Assembly (NCBI GenBank): GCA_017987115.1 | Contig: JAGNUG010000014.1 | Coordinates: forward strand, 1 to 49,844 | Source: Flavobacteriales bacterium | GTDB lineage: Bacteria; Bacteroidota; Bacteroidia; Flavobacteriales_F; PHOS-HE28 | Length of the DNA stretch: 49,844 nucleotides | Reading direction: 5' to 3' | Shown: positions 19,235-30,510 of the stretch, one piece after another | Layout: every line of letters begins with the position of its first letter | Position numbering within the stretch: the first letter of the stretch is position 1 | Notes under the pieces: model-generated | The model's database searches: none | Told to the model about the DNA's origin: nothing | The model's input: the letters and a program-made list of their open reading frames with translations, nothing else | Translations under genes and position numbers: made by a program

Positions 19235-19699
19235 TTATTCGTGGTGATATGGGCTTCCACCCAATATGGAGAATGCACGATACAACTGCTCTGCGAACAA
19301 TACCCGGACCAATTGATGCGGAAATGTCATTGCTGATAGTGACATGATCAGGTCCGCACGCTTTCGCACTTCATCAGTGAAGCCGTATGCACCACCGATC
19401 ACGAACGCCACTTGCCGAACGCCTTGGTCACGCCAACCGCCTATTTGACCTGCGAATTGTGAACTGGTCAAGGTCTTCCCCTTTTCATCCAACACAACTA
19501 CCTTTTCACCAGGTCTGAATGCAGCTAGAATGCGCTCACTCTCGGTACGTTGCTGGTAGGCCATGTCGCCCTTACCAGACTCCTGAAGCACAACCTGCTC
19601 AACCGGAAACGTTCGTGCGAGCCGATGCGTATAATGCATTATGCCTTCCGTGACGAACCCTCGTTCACTCCTTCCTACAAGTATCAGCCTGATCTTCAT
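19235..19699 (-). CDS. rlmH: 23S rRNA (pseudouridine(1915)-N(3))-methyltransferase
   Basis: RlmH methylates pseudouridine 1915 in helix 69 of 23S rRNA using SAM and acts on assembled 70S ribosomes. The 154 residues match the family length closely. The SPOUT-fold knot is visible in FVIGGAYGFTDEVRKRADL and the C-terminal signature in SMTFPHQLVRVLFAEQLYRA-like spacing ending with GGSPYHHE. The ATG at 19699 begins MKIRLILVG, as expected. It is divergent from the DUF4783 gene with about 75 bases between. Confidence 0.96.
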   Translation of the reverse strand: MKIRLILVGRSERGFVTEGIMHYTHRLARTFPVEQVVLQESGKGDMAYQQRTESERILAAFRPGEKVVVLDEKGKTLTSSQFAGQIGGWRDQGVRQVAFVIGGAYGFTDEVRKRADLIMSLSAMTFPHQLVRVLFAEQLYRAFSILGGSPYHHE

Positions 19700-19774
19700 G
19701 CCCTTAGCGGTGTTAGTAAGTTATGGTGGACACGCTACTGCATATGGCCCGGTATTTGCCAAATTTCGCAACAA

Positions 19775-20185
19775 ATGAAACGATCAATGATCCGCTTCGC
19801 GCTACTTTTCACTTTTCTACTGCCTTTCTTTGGGCTTCAGGCCCAGGATCCGGTGAAAGATAAAGTCGTTCAAGCCATGAAGACCGGTAATTCAAAGGAG
19901 CTTGCCGACCACTTCATTCCTAACCTGGATCTAACGGTACTGGATGCCTCTGATGTATACAGCAAAGCTCAAGCTGAGCAGATACTTCGAAAGTTCTTCA
20001 ACGAGAATCCCCCTTTGGACCTCGCCATTGAGCACAGCGGTGTGAGCAAGTTCGGCGACAAATACTTCATTGGCATCCTGAAAACCAAGGATGCGCAATT
20101 CAGGACAACCTTCTTCTTGAAAAAGACCGGTGAGGAATTCCAAGTGAAACAGCTTCGCATTGAGCCGAGCAAGAACGACTTTTGA
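19775..20185 (+). CDS. DUF4783 domain-containing secreted protein
   Basis: A 136-residue protein with a cleavable signal peptide (hydrophobic segment FALLFTFLLPFFG, cleavage probably after LQAQ), so it is exported to the periplasm. The mature part has the look of an NTF2-like fold: a helix pair followed by strands (VYSKAQAEQILRKFFNENPP; YFIGILKTKDAQFRTTFFLK). It matches DUF4783, a family of unknown function that in Bacteroidota typically sits before nadC, as here. Two ATGs are possible (19775 and 19787). Its stop overlaps the non-ATG start of nadC. Confidence 0.82.
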   Translation: MKRSMIRFALLFTFLLPFFGLQAQDPVKDKVVQAMKTGNSKELADHFIPNLDLTVLDASDVYSKAQAEQILRKFFNENPPLDLAIEHSGVSKFGDKYFIGILKTKDAQFRTTFFLKKTGEEFQVKQLRIEPSKNDF

Positions 20186-21030
20186 CCGTGCTTCCACCGT
20201 TGACCGAGGAATTGATCGACCGTGCCTTTGCCGAGGATGTCGGCAATGGTGACCACACTACACTTAGCACGATACCGGCAAGTGCAGAAGGAACTGCACA
20301 ATTACTCGTGAAGGACACCGGTATCCTTGCTGGGGTCGAGCTCGCAAAGGCGATCATTGAACGCTACGACCCTAAACTGATCCCAAAGGTGTTCCTTGAC
20401 GACGGGGCACATGTGAAACCCGGTGATGCGGTCATGATCATACATGGACCTATCCGAAGCATCCTGGTGGTTGAACGCTTAATACTGAACTTCATGCAAC
20501 GCATGAGCGGTATTGCTACCTTCACGAGCAGATTCGTTTCAGCGTTAGAAGGAACGGGATGTAAGGTGTTGGATACAAGGAAAACCACACCGGGATTGCG
20601 GGAGATAGAGAAATGGGCCGTGCGTATCGGGGGTGGAATGAATCACCGAATGGGTCTGTACGACATGATGATGATCAAGGACAATCATGTGGATTTCGCA
20701 GGGGGCATTCCCCAAGCTATTGCTGCGGCCAGATCCTACCAAAAAGACCATGGTATGAATATACCGATCGAGATCGAAACACGTAACCTCATTGAGGTTC
20801 GGCAAGTTCTTGAAACCGCTGGGATCCAACGCATAATGCTTGACAATTTCACTCCTGCGGATATGATCGAAGCAGTGACCTTGATCAATAATGCATACGA
20901 GACCGAAGCATCTGGCGGAATTACGCTGGCCACCGCAAGAACCTACGCCGAAACAGGTGTCAACTTCATCTCCGTAGGTGCTCTTACGCACAGCGTAGCC
21001 TGCCTTGATCTCAGTTTGAAAGCATTGTGA
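20182..21030 (+). CDS. nadC: Nicotinate-nucleotide diphosphorylase (carboxylating)
   Basis: NadC makes nicotinate mononucleotide from quinolinate and PRPP in de novo NAD synthesis. Family motifs are DVGNGDHTT near the N-terminus, LNFMQRMSGIAT, the PRPP/quinolinate-binding stretch DTRKTTPGLREIEKWAV, then GGGMNHRMGL, KDNH, IEIETRNL and IMLDNFTP. No ATG lies near the N-terminus. The candidate starts are TTG at 20182, whose TTGA overlaps the previous stop, and GTG at 20188. Either gives about 280 residues, the usual size. Tight overlap with the genes on both sides implies one transcript. Confidence 0.95.
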   Translation: MTVLPPLTEELIDRAFAEDVGNGDHTTLSTIPASAEGTAQLLVKDTGILAGVELAKAIIERYDPKLIPKVFLDDGAHVKPGDAVMIIHGPIRSILVVERLILNFMQRMSGIATFTSRFVSALEGTGCKVLDTRKTTPGLREIEKWAVRIGGGMNHRMGLYDMMMIKDNHVDFAGGIPQAIAAARSYQKDHGMNIPIEIETRNLIEVRQVLETAGIQRIMLDNFTPADMIEAVTLINNAYETEASGGITLATARTYAETGVNFISVGALTHSVACLDLSLKAL

Positions 21031-22007
21031 TGTTGGATAGGATCAAGCGCAAGGTGCTCTTCTCCCGAGTATTCCGGCGATTGGTTGGCCGCGCTGACAA
21101 TGTGATCCTACCCGGCTTTGAAGGTTTCAGTATTTACAGGATAGGAAGATTCTTCCTACAAGCTTTGACCGATGGGCAAATGACCATGCGTGCCTCAGCG
21201 ATCGCGTTCAAAGTATTCATCGCTTTCTTCCCAGCGGTGATCATGCTCCTCACATTGATCCCATTCATCCCGATCGATGATTTCCAGATCAAACTCCTAA
21301 TTACATTCCGTGATCTTTTACCACCGGAAGTTTACAAATTCATTGAGACAACGCTACACGACCTTTTGGTCAAAAAACACGGTACACTTTTATCCGTGAG
21401 CTTCTTGATAGGAATATACCTGGCCAGCAATAGCATCGACGCGATCCTTGAAGGCTTCAGCCAGAGCACCAATCTGCATACCTGGCATAGTCCCTTGAAG
21501 CAACGCATGCTGAGCATGGGTCTTTTACTTGTTCTGCCGATCTTGGGACTTATCGGAATTCCGATATTGACCATGAGCGGAATTGCCATTGATCGGCTCA
21601 CGGATTACAGCATTCTTACAAACCAACTACAGGTATATGCGCTGGTTGCTGCGAAATGGCTGATATCCACATTGCTTGTTCTTAGTTTCGTATCGATGTT
21701 ATACGCCGCAGGTGATCCGACCTCACCTAAATTCAGATTGATCACCCCAGGGGCACTCTTGGCCATGTTCCTTGTACTCGTGATCTCCCAAGCACTGGCT
21801 TTCGTATTCAGCAACATTACAGATTACAATGCTTTGTACGGATCCATAGGCGCTATTCTGGCTGTTCAGTTGTGGATCTATTTCAATATGCTAGGGTTGC
21901 TTATTGGGCATGAGTTGAACGCCGCGATCGTAAAAGCCAGTGTGGAACACAGTGCAAACCTGAAGGTCAGGAAACAAGCCATTGCCAGCCCCAGCAGACC
22001 GACATAG
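21030..22007 (+). CDS. YihY/BrkB family inner-membrane protein
   Basis: A 325-residue protein with about six transmembrane segments, of the YihY/BrkB family (formerly called ribonuclease BN). The signature near helix 1 is MRASAIAFKVFIAFFPAVIM, followed by LTLIPFIPI, and near the end NITDYNALYGSIGAILAVQL with the conserved YGSIGA. Members are inner-membrane proteins with proposed transport or virulence roles that are not well established. The start ATG at 21030 overlaps the nadC stop by one base; a GTG one codon upstream is an alternative. The C-terminal tail (about 20 residues) is polar and basic. Confidence 0.88.
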   Translation: MLDRIKRKVLFSRVFRRLVGRADNVILPGFEGFSIYRIGRFFLQALTDGQMTMRASAIAFKVFIAFFPAVIMLLTLIPFIPIDDFQIKLLITFRDLLPPEVYKFIETTLHDLLVKKHGTLLSVSFLIGIYLASNSIDAILEGFSQSTNLHTWHSPLKQRMLSMGLLLVLPILGLIGIPILTMSGIAIDRLTDYSILTNQLQVYALVAAKWLISTLLVLSFVSMLYAAGDPTSPKFRLITPGALLAMFLVLVISQALAFVFSNITDYNALYGSIGAILAVQLWIYFNMLGLLIGHELNAAIVKASVEHSANLKVRKQAIASPSRPT

Positions 22008-22052
22008 GAAGAGGTCGGATCGTATTCCTTAATACCTTGGTCCCCCTTGACC

Positions 22053-25000
22053 ATGCGCATTCCAGCGATACTCGTTTTGACCCTTTTGATCAGTGGTGCT
22101 TTTGCGCAGCGTTTCGCACCATTGCAGCCGCCGAACTCGTATCGTAACGCGGATAATCCTCTTTACTGGAAGAACAGACCGCCTTACCCTGGATATTGGC
22201 AGCAGGACGTGCACTACTTGATCAAGGGCCGATTGAATGATATGGACGATGTATTGAACGGAGATCTAACGCTTTATTACCAGAACAACTCCCCGGATAC
22301 GCTCCACTTCGTTTACTTCCATTTGTACCAAGAAGCCTATGTAAAAGGTTCATACTTGGAGAATAAGCAAGATGATGAAGGAAGAAAGAAAGGCTCCTTT
22401 TCATCGCTACCATACGGTGGCACACGTGTGCATGACATCACCTCAAATGGAGACACGCTCCGATCGGAACAGGACAATACGGTACTGAAAGTTTGGCTGA
22501 ATGCTCCATTACCTCCTAGCGAACGCGTCACGTTACGAATGGATTTCGATACCCATTGGTCAACAGCGATACAAAGGCGTATGAAACTTTACAACGCATG
22601 GGGTTACAAGCATTTCACGGGTGTGCATTGGTATCCACGGATCGCAGTATATGATCGTAAATTCGGTTGGGATACACAGCAACATCTAGGCAGCGAATTC
22701 TATGGCGATTTCGGAGCATTCGATGTGGAACTCGACTTCCCGAACCAATACGTTGTGGATGCTACGGGTTGGCTACAGAATGAACCGGCTGTACTTCCAG
22801 CAGAACTGAAAGCGAAACTGGCGCTCAGCAATTTCAAGGATAAACCATGGAACGAACGCCCTTCCGTCGTCATCATTCCGGATACATCGATCCGCAAAGT
22901 GTGGAAATTCCATGCAGAGAATGTCCATGACTTTGCCTTCACGGCTGATCCCACTTACCGAATTGGGGAATCGACCTGGAATGGTGTTAAGTGTGTCGCG
23001 CTTGTTCAGGAACCGCATGCAAGTGGTTGGCAGAATGCAGCGGAATACACCGCAAAGATCATTGAATGTTTCAGTCGTGATTTCGGAATGTATGCTTACC
23101 CGAAAATGATCGTGGCTGATGCGCGTGACGGCATGGAGTACCCCATGATTACGATGGATAGTGGTAATGAACCAAATTACCGCAGTTTGTTCGTCCACGA
23201 GGTAGGGCACAACTGGTTCTTCGGCATGTTGGGCAATAATGAAACATACCGGGCATTCATGGATGAAGGATTCACCCAATTCCTAACGGCTTGGGGATTG
23301 GAACATATCGATGGCGATACAATGGTTGAAACACCCGCCAAGAACTCATACGAACGTGGCTTTACCGAACCAAGTCTTGCTCGCGAGGAAGAGGTCTATT
23401 ACAGCTACCAGCGTGATGCCGTGAAAGATCAATTACCTCCGATCAATGTCCATAGCGATGAATTCGGACATGTTGAAGGGCTGGGCAGAGGCTATGGCCA
23501 TGTGTATACCAAGACCGCTGTTATGCTCTACAATTTGCAGTACGTTCTGGGCGACTCTCTCTTTTTGGCAGCCATGAAAAACTATGTGGAGCAATGGAAG
23601 ATCTGCCATCCCTATCCAGAGGATATGAGGCAAAGTTTCATCGAGTTCACACATGTGGACCTCAACTGGTTCTTTGATCAATGGATTGAAACCGACAAGC
23701 GGATCGATTATGCCATTCGCGGAGTGAAACACAAGAATCGCAATGAAGGACAGGAGATCCGTCTGTTGAGAAAAGGGGATCTACATATGCCGATAGACCT
23801 TCGTATTACAGCGAACGACGGCAAGAATTACGACTATTACATACCCAATGCATGGTTCGAAAAAAAGACCGGAGCAACGTTGCTTCCGCGTTGGATCGGG
23901 TATGATGAACTTGCTCGTGACCATACCGCCCGAGTGGACATTCCCACTGGAATTGCGAATGTTCGAATTGACACAACAGGGCGCTTGGCTGATGCCTATT
24001 TATTGAACAATAGCATGCATGTACCGGTGAACATCATGTTCGATCACCATATCCGAAATAGACCGGATCGACATGCCTACGAGGTATTCGCTCGCCCGGA
24101 CATTTGGTGGAATGGTTACGACGGAATAAAAGCCGGAGTTCATTTGAACAGTAGTTACTTGAAGTACAAACACCAGATCCATTTCAGCGCTTGGCTCAAC
24201 ACCGGGATCGGACAGTATTTACCCGCGACCAATAGAGCGCTGATGGACACTGTACCCGGAAACAAGGACGTTGGATTCGATCCGTTCTCGTTCAATTTCA
24301 GATACGAGAACGGTACGGAAAAGATCCTCAAGGGCTCATCCGTTTATCTATTGGCCCGTATTCTTGACGGCATGGAACGGTACGGCGGCGGTTGGCATTG
24401 GAAACTACCGGACCGCAATACCGAAGTTGATGCTCGCTTGCTGTATTTCATCCGAAAAGACAGTACGGACCTCACCTACTTACTCTATCCTGACCATTGG
24501 GATCTTGATCGGTTGAACGGCGTATTCGATATTGAACTTACACATCGCTACGACCGTGGAATCGGAGATGGAAAATTGGATCTGGACCTGCGCAGCAGTG
24601 CGGTCGGATCGGATAGCCGATATGGTCAGGTCCGCTTAACCAATATCAACGAGAAGAAGATCAGTGGTCTGCAACTCCGGACCCGCATCATGGGGCAATA
24701 CGGTTCCGGTAACACACCTCGCGAAAGTGCATTGTACATGGCGGGAGGGAATCCCGAGGAAATGATGGAGAACAAGTACATGCGAAGTGTAGGTTTTGCA
24801 CCGTATGATTGGCTTGGATATAGCGGCGATGTGAACCACCTTCAGTTCGGTGGCGGTCTTGGCCTTCGCGGTTATGCCGGGTATTTGGCTCCCGAGTACA
24901 CTGCGGATAGCGCGATCGTTTACACGTACATGGGCAATACGGGAACAGCAGTAAATGCTGAATTGGACCTGGATGGTCTGATCCGCTTCAGACCCGGAAA

Positions 25001-25280
25001 ACTTGCGCGTTACCTCCACTTGGATGTTTATCTGTTCGGTGATATCGGTTCCATGGCCTACACTACCGTAAGCAACGGAAATGAACAGATCACATTCGCG
25101 AAACCGCGCGCAGATGCTGGTGCCGGCGTTGCGCTTACGATCAAGAAATTCGGTCCTCTGGTCGACATCAAACCACTGACCATCCGATTCGACATGCCCT
25201 TGATCCTCTCTGCGCTGCCCGCCGGGCAACCCGATAATTTTGCGTTCAGGTATGTTGTTGCTATTGGGCGTAGTTTTTGA
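22053..25280 (+). CDS. M1 family metallopeptidase fused to a C-terminal outer-membrane-barrel-like domain
   Basis: A 1075-residue exported protein: signal peptide MRIPAILVLTLLISGAFA, then a gluzincin M1 aminopeptidase domain to about residue 640. The exopeptidase motif appears as DGMEYP and the zinc site as HEVGH at 382-386 with E405, the exact 18-residue spacing of HExxH-x18-E. The remaining 430 residues are unlike a usual M1 C-terminal domain. They are rich in alternating hydrophobic strands, contain GGGLGLRGYAGY (LRGY at 938-941) and later LHLDVYLFGDIGSMAY, and end in FRYVVAIGRSF with a terminal Phe. These are features of Omp85-superfamily barrels. I infer an outer-membrane-anchored aminopeptidase. 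ATG at 22053 is preferred to an in-frame TTG two codons upstream. Confidence 0.85.
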   Translation: MRIPAILVLTLLISGAFAQRFAPLQPPNSYRNADNPLYWKNRPPYPGYWQQDVHYLIKGRLNDMDDVLNGDLTLYYQNNSPDTLHFVYFHLYQEAYVKGSYLENKQDDEGRKKGSFSSLPYGGTRVHDITSNGDTLRSEQDNTVLKVWLNAPLPPSERVTLRMDFDTHWSTAIQRRMKLYNAWGYKHFTGVHWYPRIAVYDRKFGWDTQQHLGSEFYGDFGAFDVELDFPNQYVVDATGWLQNEPAVLPAELKAKLALSNFKDKPWNERPSVVIIPDTSIRKVWKFHAENVHDFAFTADPTYRIGESTWNGVKCVALVQEPHASGWQNAAEYTAKIIECFSRDFGMYAYPKMIVADARDGMEYPMITMDSGNEPNYRSLFVHEVGHNWFFGMLGNNETYRAFMDEGFTQFLTAWGLEHIDGDTMVETPAKNSYERGFTEPSLAREEEVYYSYQRDAVKDQLPPINVHSDEFGHVEGLGRGYGHVYTKTAVMLYNLQYVLGDSLFLAAMKNYVEQWKICHPYPEDMRQSFIEFTHVDLNWFFDQWIETDKRIDYAIRGVKHKNRNEGQEIRLLRKGDLHMPIDLRITANDGKNYDYYIPNAWFEKKTGATLLPRWIGYDELARDHTARVDIPTGIANVRIDTTGRLADAYLLNNSMHVPVNIMFDHHIRNRPDRHAYEVFARPDIWWNGYDGIKAGVHLNSSYLKYKHQIHFSAWLNTGIGQYLPATNRALMDTVPGNKDVGFDPFSFNFRYENGTEKILKGSSVYLLARILDGMERYGGGWHWKLPDRNTEVDARLLYFIRKDSTDLTYLLYPDHWDLDRLNGVFDIELTHRYDRGIGDGKLDLDLRSSAVGSDSRYGQVRLTNINEKKISGLQLRTRIMGQYGSGNTPRESALYMAGGNPEEMMENKYMRSVGFAPYDWLGYSGDVNHLQFGGGLGLRGYAGYLAPEYTADSAIVYTYMGNTGTAVNAELDLDGLIRFRPGKLARYLHLDVYLFGDIGSMAYTTVSNGNEQITFAKPRADAGAGVALTIKKFGPLVDIKPLTIRFDMPLILSALPAGQPDNFAFRYVVAIGRSF

Positions 25281-25282
25281 TC

Positions 25283-25687
25283 ATGCGCAACTTTCTTGCT
25301 CTTATCAGCCTTATTTCTGTTCCCTTGTTCGCTCAGGACATCAGCGGCCGTTGGACCACGATTGATGATAACACCGGTGCAAAACGCTCAGTGGTGGAGA
25401 TCACGATAACTAACGGAATTGCAAGCGGCACCATCGTTGACATCCATGATAAGACCAAAATGGACAACACGTGTACCAAATGCACGGACGACCGGAAAGA
25501 CAAACGGATATTAGGACTCCCCATCATTAGGAACATGAAAAAGGACGGCGATGAATGGGAAGATGGCACCATCCTGGACCCAGAGAATGGTAAAATCTAT
25601 GATTGCAAGATCTGGCTGGAGGACGGAAAATTGCAAGTCCGCGGTTACGTTGCTTTTTTCTACCGGACGCAAGTGTGGGTGCGGTGA
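25283..25687 (+). CDS. DUF2147 domain-containing secreted protein
   Basis: A 134-residue protein with a signal peptide (MRNFLALISLISVPLFAQ) followed by the DUF2147 fold. The opening DISGRWTTIDDNTGAKRSVVEI and closing DCKIWLEDGKLQVRGYV are characteristic, as in lipocalin-like periplasmic proteins. A CTKC pair sits in the middle. The function is unknown. It begins just after the M1 peptidase stop, with 2 bases between, so it is probably co-transcribed. It ends 4 bases before the stop of the convergent glycosyltransferase gene. Confidence 0.88.
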   Translation: MRNFLALISLISVPLFAQDISGRWTTIDDNTGAKRSVVEITITNGIASGTIVDIHDKTKMDNTCTKCTDDRKDKRILGLPIIRNMKKDGDEWEDGTILDPENGKIYDCKIWLEDGKLQVRGYVAFFYRTQVWVR

Positions 25688-28969: not shown

Positions 28970-30454
28970 TCAACCAACTACTTTCCCACGAATTTGTTGC
29001 GAGAACTCCATCAACTCCTTCATTAAGCCTAAAGCATATGCGGCAGGTAAGAACATTGCCGCCGCAACGGCCGTGCGCATGATCACACTCAGGTACGGGT
29101 TATCCAGCGTTGGTACGTATTGCATTACGCCCAATACACCGATGATCAACAACGCCACAAAAAGTGTTCGCCGATCAAACGGCCATAGACCGTAGCGTGA
29201 GTATAGGATCCATGTTCGGAAGACGTTCACCAACATCAACGACAGGAACGTGGCATACGCAGCGCCTACTATGCCCATGCTGCGGATGAAGAAGAAGTTA
29301 GCAACCAAATTCACGATCAACATGCCGATGCTGCTGATGGCATCCAACCGAAAGGACTTCGACATGCTGATGATGCCAACACCCAGTTGTACAGCACTCG
29401 TTAGCATATATGAAAGGCCAATGACCAAGGCCACTTGCGCTCCACCTGCATACTCCTCCGGAAGCAATGCGAACAGTCCGTCCAAACTGGTTACCATCAA
29501 TAAGAACAGGAAACCGCTGATGAGGAATTGCACGAGCGAGGAGGAACGATAAAGCATCTGGATCTTGGCGGTGTCGTTCTGCTTCCATGCGTCCGCAAGT
29601 ATCGGAACTGCGGCTTGTTGTAATGCGCGTGCAGGTGCCGCGATCACTGATCCAAAGTAGAAGGCTACCGCATAATGCGCGACGTATTTAAGGCCATCGC
29701 CTAGCAAGGCACCGATCATCAACTGGTCCATGTTACCCAGAATGATACCTGCCAAACTTGCAGAAAGCGTATAGCTACTGTACGTGAGCATGCTCTTACG
29801 CAAGCGTCGTGGTAACCACCGATGAGCCCAACCCAATTTGAAATGACCAGCTCTGTAAATGTCGAATACAAGGAGCAGCGTACTCAACAGGAAGATCCCT
29901 GTGTAGACCAGCATGAAGTCCGCAAAAGGCATCGGACGCCATGCTTGGAAACATATCAATCCCGTCTGGAGCAAGCGTAGAACGAATTCACGAATGAAAC
30001 TCGGTTGTACCGTGCGTTGAAGAGATCGACTGTAGCTGCGCAACAAAATGAAGTGTATCTCTGAGAACACGATCGGTAACAACAACCAACCATGGGTGAC
30101 GAAGAGTGCATTGCGATCAGAGAAAATATCCGCGAACACGCCTTGCATCATGCCCAATACCAACATGGTGATCAGCCCGATGGTGGTACCGAACAGCAGC
30201 AGCATTCCGAGCAGACCGCGATGGTCCTTCGCCGGATCGCGGAAATAAGGGAAGTACCGGATCACGGTATTCTCTGCACCGAGTTGTGCCACCTGCGCTG
30301 CAATGGTAGCTAGCGACACCAGAAGACGCGTTAGGCCGAATTGGTCGGCATCGAGCACCTTTGGGTACAGCAGAACCACATTCACAAAACCAAGCCCAAT
30401 GCCCAAGTAGGCGAGCAAGGTATTGAGGGTGGCTTGTCTGGCAATAATGCCCAT
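28970..30454 (-). CDS. Polysaccharide flippase (Wzx-like, MOP superfamily)
   Basis: A 494-residue protein with about 14 hydrophobic segments. The opening GIIARQATLNTLLAYLGI followed by LDADQFGLTRLL is typical of oligosaccharide flippases in Bacteroidota. ATG at 30454 is preferred to a TTG three codons upstream. It is the last gene of the operon DUF4834-YfhO-GT4-flippase and starts 56 bases after the GT4 stop. With the flippase at 6702 this gives two different export proteins in one window, either for two glycans or for different lipid-linked intermediates. Confidence 0.86.
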   Translation of the reverse strand: MGIIARQATLNTLLAYLGIGLGFVNVVLLYPKVLDADQFGLTRLLVSLATIAAQVAQLGAENTVIRYFPYFRDPAKDHRGLLGMLLLFGTTIGLITMLVLGMMQGVFADIFSDRNALFVTHGWLLLPIVFSEIHFILLRSYSRSLQRTVQPSFIREFVLRLLQTGLICFQAWRPMPFADFMLVYTGIFLLSTLLLVFDIYRAGHFKLGWAHRWLPRRLRKSMLTYSSYTLSASLAGIILGNMDQLMIGALLGDGLKYVAHYAVAFYFGSVIAAPARALQQAAVPILADAWKQNDTAKIQMLYRSSSLVQFLISGFLFLLMVTSLDGLFALLPEEYAGGAQVALVIGLSYMLTSAVQLGVGIISMSKSFRLDAISSIGMLIVNLVANFFFIRSMGIVGAAYATFLSLMLVNVFRTWILYSRYGLWPFDRRTLFVALLIIGVLGVMQYVPTLDNPYLSVIMRTAVAAAMFLPAAYALGLMKELMEFSQQIRGKVVG

Positions 30455-30510
30455 GGTGATCAAATGATCAGATAGTAAACTTCAATTCGTCAAAGGAAAC
30501 ACTGATCGGT

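Follow-up and report, generated by a model that had tools for sequence, protein, structure and literature searches.

A single uninterrupted open reading frame with an ATG start, located at positions 22053–25280 on the forward strand of the window (the whole stretch of 49,844 nucleotides that was analyzed), encodes a protein of 1075 residues that sequence comparison and structure prediction confirm to be a fusion of an M1 aminopeptidase with an Omp85-type barrel. The predicted order of its parts is a signal peptide, an M1 zinc aminopeptidase, and a C-terminal barrel of 16 strands. Homologues called at E below 1e-150 were found in 148 of the 296 Bacteroidia genomes surveyed and in 74 of 165 genera, almost always as a single copy per genome; nearly all of them are full length and free of stop codons, which argues that the fusion did not arise by chance. 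The AQ pair at the putative signal peptide cleavage site is retained in the homologue consensus.

22053–25280, forward strand: M1 aminopeptidase–Omp85 barrel fusion, 1075 residues plus stop codon (open reading frame, Pfam, AlphaFold, genome survey)
22053–22109, forward strand: predicted signal peptide plus first mature residue, residues 1–19, MRIPAILVLTLLISGAFA followed by Q (sequence; DSSP helix 2–16; cleavage site by eye)
22197–23120, forward strand: M1 N-terminal domain plus the beginning of the catalytic domain, residues 49–356, approximate borders (VIA-align)
23709–24032, forward strand: mostly beta domain between the catalytic domain and the barrel, residues 553–660 (DSSP; M1 alignments)

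The full-length AlphaFold model has a pLDDT of 86.7 and a pTM of 0.84 and contains the 16 strands. The input alignments were moderately shallow, with 42 sequences for the full-length protein and 31 for the barrel alone, and the homologues entered them without their last residue, the query being unaffected. The relative placing of the M1 domain and the barrel is taken from the predicted strand topology.

The peptidase half

A sequence-only reading of this DNA had proposed a zinc site made up of HEVGH at residues 382–386 and Glu405. Both lie exactly there, and the region matches Pfam Peptidase_M1 (PF01433) over residues 374–544 (E = 2.9e-13; 50.3 bits against a cut-off of 27.7).

23130–23144, forward strand: GMEYP (360–364), a departure from the exopeptidase motif GxMEN (identical throughout the 42-sequence alignment)
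23196–23267, forward strand: zinc site, HEVGH (382–386) to E405 (sequence, Pfam, alignment)
23505–23507, forward strand: Y485, candidate catalytic tyrosine, VYTKTA against TYAKGA of an M1 aminopeptidase (invariant; alignment)

Glu405 is situated 19 residues past His386, completing an HExxH(18)E zinc site, and His382, Glu383, His386, and Glu405 are invariant across the 42 aligned sequences. The GMEYP motif retains the Met and Glu of GxMEN with Tyr in place of Asn, and is also found in the soluble and second-barrel paralogues described below. A superposition of the model, from residue 49 onward, with structures of tricorn factor F3, IRAP, ERAP, LTA4H, and others gives Z values of 26–28.6 for the M1 fold (VIA-align), the best match being 3q7j (Z 28.6, rmsd 2.9, 453 residues aligned). 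Residues 553–660 occupy the position of M1 domain III, and the structural alignments to M1 enzymes extend through them. GMEYP, HExxH, E405, and Y485 are all intact in 87 of 88 fused homologues. The fusion is predicted to be an active aminopeptidase.

Structure and signatures of the barrel

Because the list of PDB matches to the full-length model was filled by M1 chains, the barrel was also folded on its own. The M1-free model again forms a 16-strand barrel (pLDDT 81.2, pTM 0.79), and so of the two folds that the sequence-only reading had set against each other, a closed barrel of about 16 strands and a soluble sandwich, the barrel is the one predicted. All 50 of the Foldseek matches listed for this model are Omp85 proteins (BamA, TamA), as are all 50 of the VIA matches listed, with Sam50 and BamA at Z 19–20. 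Among the matches listed, the Z values to Omp85 structures run from 17.7 to 20.3 across 266–307 residues.

24078–25271, forward strand: 16-stranded Omp85-type barrel, residues 676–1073 (AlphaFold/DSSP, Foldseek, VIA, profile comparison)
24711–24941, forward strand: equivalent of loop L6, residues 887–963, between strands 11 and 12 (DSSP)
24864–24875, forward strand: LRGY (938–941), the [V/L]RG[F/Y] motif of Omp85 L6 (alignments, profile comparison)
24960–24962, forward strand: E970 in strand 12, aligned with an Omp85 Glu (invariant; alignment)
25035–25049, forward strand: FGDIG (995–999) in strand 13, an FxDxG-like Omp85 motif (alignment, profile comparison)
25275–25277, forward strand: terminal Phe, F1075 (last residue in 41 of 41 homologues checked)

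The Omp85 signatures appear in their customary order: L6 with LRGY, the strand-12 Glu, the strand-13 FxDxG-like motif, and the terminal Phe. Strands 11 and 12 are joined by a connector of 77 residues that carries GGGLGLRGYAGY at residues 933–944, and FGDIGSMAY occupies residues 995–1003. These were the stretches on which the Omp85-like character of the C-terminus had originally been proposed, and they fall within the 16-strand barrel that the confident AlphaFold model places at residues 676–1073; the terminal Phe, also part of that proposal, is borne out by the homologues. Arg939, Glu970, Phe995, Asp997, and Gly999 are invariant in the 42 sequences. In BamA, the RGY arginine pairs with the strand-12 Glu and the strand-13 Asp, a correspondence drawn here from alignment and invariance only. 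LRGY is also the form of the motif in BamA of F. johnsoniae (PMC12611786). No POTRA domain was matched by Pfam in the fusion, and residues 553–639, which precede the barrel, consist of strands and lack the helix pair that a POTRA would have (DSSP).

Sequence-profile relation to Omp85

Neither the fusion protein nor 31 homologous barrels match the Pfam Omp85 model PF01103. Searches of Pfam and NCBIfam with the barrel and its homologues gave no meaningful match, and a search of PDB sequences with the barrel profile gave none. In profile–profile comparison (hhalign probabilities), the fusion-barrel family scored 77% against full-length Bacteroidota Omp85 proteins and 50% against the barrel part alone; standalone relatives scored 94% against Omp85, and 95.0–95.5% when merged with the fusion-barrel family. 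The alignment is collinear and covers the RGY and FxDxG region, and the controls, PorP/SprF barrels and reversed profiles, reached at most about 1%. Thus, the relation to Omp85 that had been expected from profile searches emerged between profiles and not from the Pfam model. Since the profile comparison and the structural matches both show this relation, we read the silence of PF01103 as a limit of that model, and the combined sequence and model evidence supports placing the barrel in the Omp85 superfamily.

Distribution and natural variants

Searching a phylum-wide sample of 296 genomes with the barrel profile yielded matches in 62, and in many of these the barrel stands alone, at about 400–470 residues. 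Such standalone Omp85-like barrels (L122–L131 and L133–L150) are frequent in other Bacteroidota families, and two of them are arranged in tandem at one site (L123/L248). The standalone set L122–L150 is homologous to the fusion barrel (hhalign 100%), and the four of its barrels scanned with Pfam gave no match. The idea of a split gene was rejected, there being no M1 gene within about 7–9 kb of five standalone-barrel sites.

Two further variants depart from the fused architecture. In one genome, a 614-residue protein (L231:2103-3944, reverse strand, G038:C11) carries a barrel of the fusion's family behind a non-M1 N-terminus of ∼200 residues, and an M1 protein without a barrel (L232) is encoded separately. 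In another (L233:2619-5705, reverse strand, G035:C20), a full-length homologue appears to be a pseudopeptidase with an RGY barrel. It is the exception among the 88 fused homologues, reading S-M-D-W-P and R-E..F at the corresponding motifs, with both zinc histidines lost. Because some lineages thus keep the barrel where M1 is missing (L122–L150, L231) or dead (L233), holding an active peptidase in the membrane is probably not the barrel's sole role. That it persists where no peptidase works suggests an activity of its own, be it the anchoring of other domains, transport, or assembly of outer membrane proteins.

The genome that encodes the fusion also encodes a second M1-barrel paralogue of 1020 residues (L005:10-3069, reverse strand, G000:C172) and a soluble M1 protein of 647 residues (L007). 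The barrel of the second paralogue, which is present across the relatives searched, is diverged and lacks RGY; compared directly with Omp85 it scored 0.3–0.4%, and it is tied to the superfamily only via the merged profile of the fusion family (96%). The M1 domains of the fusion, L005, and L007 form separate clades. Either one shared barrel gain or two separate gains by the type I and type II M1 proteins would fit the tree, which is rooted only by midpoint and in which L249 and L233 are long branches.

Genome neighborhood

At positions 19550–25687 of the window, genes for a DUF4783 protein, nadC, BrkB/YihY, the M1-barrel protein, and a DUF2147 protein follow one another on a single strand, most of them overlapping or directly adjacent, in an order largely retained in near relatives. 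Across 80 loci from named contigs, all of them metagenome assemblies labelled Bacteroidota, the upstream nadC-BrkB pair is common to about 36 and a downstream DUF2147 gene to 22. Synteny was set aside as a clue to function, as nadC, BrkB/YihY, and DUF2147 are housekeeping neighbors and uninformative. A 497-residue protein without a Pfam match is encoded at 28973–30463 on the reverse strand, and its relatives are found near the M1-barrel gene at 30 of the 80 loci. Across the whole genome (G000), the PorP/SprF family of type IX secretion barrels is matched 14 times.

Location and function of the peptidase

In the predicted barrel, the connectors that follow odd-numbered strands measure 3, 27, 2, 21, 7, 77, 11, and 15 residues, and the turns that follow even-numbered strands measure 3, 8, 5, 2, 2, 15, and 11 residues (DSSP). 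As the N-terminus precedes strand 1 of an even-stranded barrel and the long loops, which as a rule face outward, are on the opposite side, the M1 domain would be situated on the periplasmic side. The N-terminal enzyme of PlpD was shown to stay periplasmic (PMC11116518), and this precedent, together with the strand topology, favors a membrane-anchored periplasmic aminopeptidase. Where the sequence-only reading had allowed for either the cell surface or the periplasm, both lines thus point to the periplasm. We consider it probable that the protein is an M1 zinc aminopeptidase whose peptidase domain is periplasmic and whose Omp85-superfamily barrel anchors it in the outer membrane. Export would proceed through Sec under direction of the signal peptide, and insertion of the 16 C-terminal strands as a barrel would fall to the BAM machine. 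The M1 domain would then replace POTRA domains at the periplasmic mouth of the barrel and trim the N-termini of its putative substrates, peptides or unfolded envelope proteins arriving there.

Alternatively, the barrel could itself be active in the Omp85 manner, inserting or translocating clients of its own, which the M1 domain would trim or quality-control on the spot. The L6 RGY, strand-12 Glu, and FxDxG set is kept with its key residues invariant, and barrels are retained as standalone proteins, after a 200-residue non-M1 N-terminus, or next to a dead M1 domain, which suggests a function of their own. There is also a parallel in E. coli, where the periplasmic zinc metalloproteases BepA, YcaL, and LoiP work on stalled outer membrane proteins (PMC13067283). 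We nevertheless regard this role as unlikely, given that the fusion has no POTRA domain for receiving clients, that separate POTRA-bearing Omp85 proteins (L118 and L119) are encoded in the same genome, and that no partner gene lies alongside. A bifunctional machine, in which the POTRA-less barrel inserts or threads polypeptides and the M1 domain processes or removes them at the periplasmic mouth, would amount to a widespread envelope quality control system of Bacteroidia, and seems to us quite unlikely.

Bacteroidota display many hydrolases on their surface, and the barrel could in principle pass the M1 domain to the exterior for the digestion of external peptides. Such a route resembles the original type Vd proposal of PlpD-like autotransport (PMC4104836, PMC11116518), yet PlpD itself was shown to retain its enzyme in the periplasm (PMC11116518). 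In addition, such a passage would require the unfolding of a folded M1 part of roughly 640 residues with no ATP to drive it, and the N-terminus is periplasmic by the predicted strand topology. Surface display is therefore less likely than a periplasmic location and, taken by itself, very unlikely. A soluble M1 aminopeptidase, in which a soluble beta domain and no membrane barrel makes up the C-terminal 430 residues, would accord with the lack of a Pfam or PDB sequence match in that part of the protein, but is extremely improbable in view of the 16-strand barrel seen in both the full-length and the barrel-only models, the structural neighbors, all of which among those listed are Omp85 barrels, and the Omp85 profile match.

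The fusion brings a peptidase architecture into the Omp85 superfamily, in which most characterized members assemble or move proteins. As Pfam is blind to the barrel, standard annotation would label such proteins plain M1 peptidases. That roughly half of the Bacteroidia genomes sampled encode one, usually once and with the active site intact, points to a conserved envelope function, and natural variants in which M1 is missing or dead offer ready comparisons for separating the role of the barrel from that of the peptidase.

Comparison with known systems

In the literature searched, which included few subscription journals and no bioRxiv preprints, there was no description of an M1 peptidase joined to an Omp85 or other outer-membrane barrel, in agreement with the sequence-only reading, which knew of none. 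The Bacteroidota BAM papers searched mention no peptidase, and the TamL paper describes none in the passages found.

Neither a patatin domain nor PF00149, a family that we take to be the calcineurin-like phosphoesterases, was found at the N-terminus of the fusion, where Peptidase_M1 was the only Pfam match. A close parallel in layout is PlpD of Pseudomonas aeruginosa, a patatin-like Omp85 protein that likewise consists of a signal peptide, an N-terminal enzyme, and a C-terminal 16-strand Omp85 barrel (PMC11116518); PlpD combines a patatin-like lipase with POTRA, whereas the present protein has an M1 peptidase and no POTRA. Heinz and Lithgow (2014) distinguished ten Omp85 subfamilies, and M1 is not among them as described in the text (PMC4104836). 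Their ‘Metallo’ subfamily is similar in that an N-terminal domain resembling an enzyme is joined to an Omp85 barrel in a non-POTRA architecture, but its domain is PF00149, termed a metalloprotease by the paper, in contrast to the true zinc peptidase of PF01433 found here (PMC4104836). Their ‘noNterm’ subfamily (PMC4104836) and the standalone barrels L122–L150 share with the fusion an Omp85-type barrel without POTRA and, unlike it, have no peptidase domain.

The catalytic fold and the order of the zinc site are those of solved M1 aminopeptidases (tricorn factor F3, IRAP/ERAP, LTA4H, and the Deinococcus two-domain M1 enzyme); the enzymes listed have GxMEN and no membrane barrel, whereas the fusion has GMEYP and a barrel. 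With BamA, TamA, and Sam50, it shares the 16-strand barrel, the L6 RG[F/Y], the strand-12 Glu, and the FxDxG-like motif. The POTRA domains of those proteins lie in the periplasm or in the intermembrane space, and in that place the fusion would hold its M1 peptidase. Within the literature searched, M1 is a new N-terminal enzyme among the known enzyme–Omp85 fusions.
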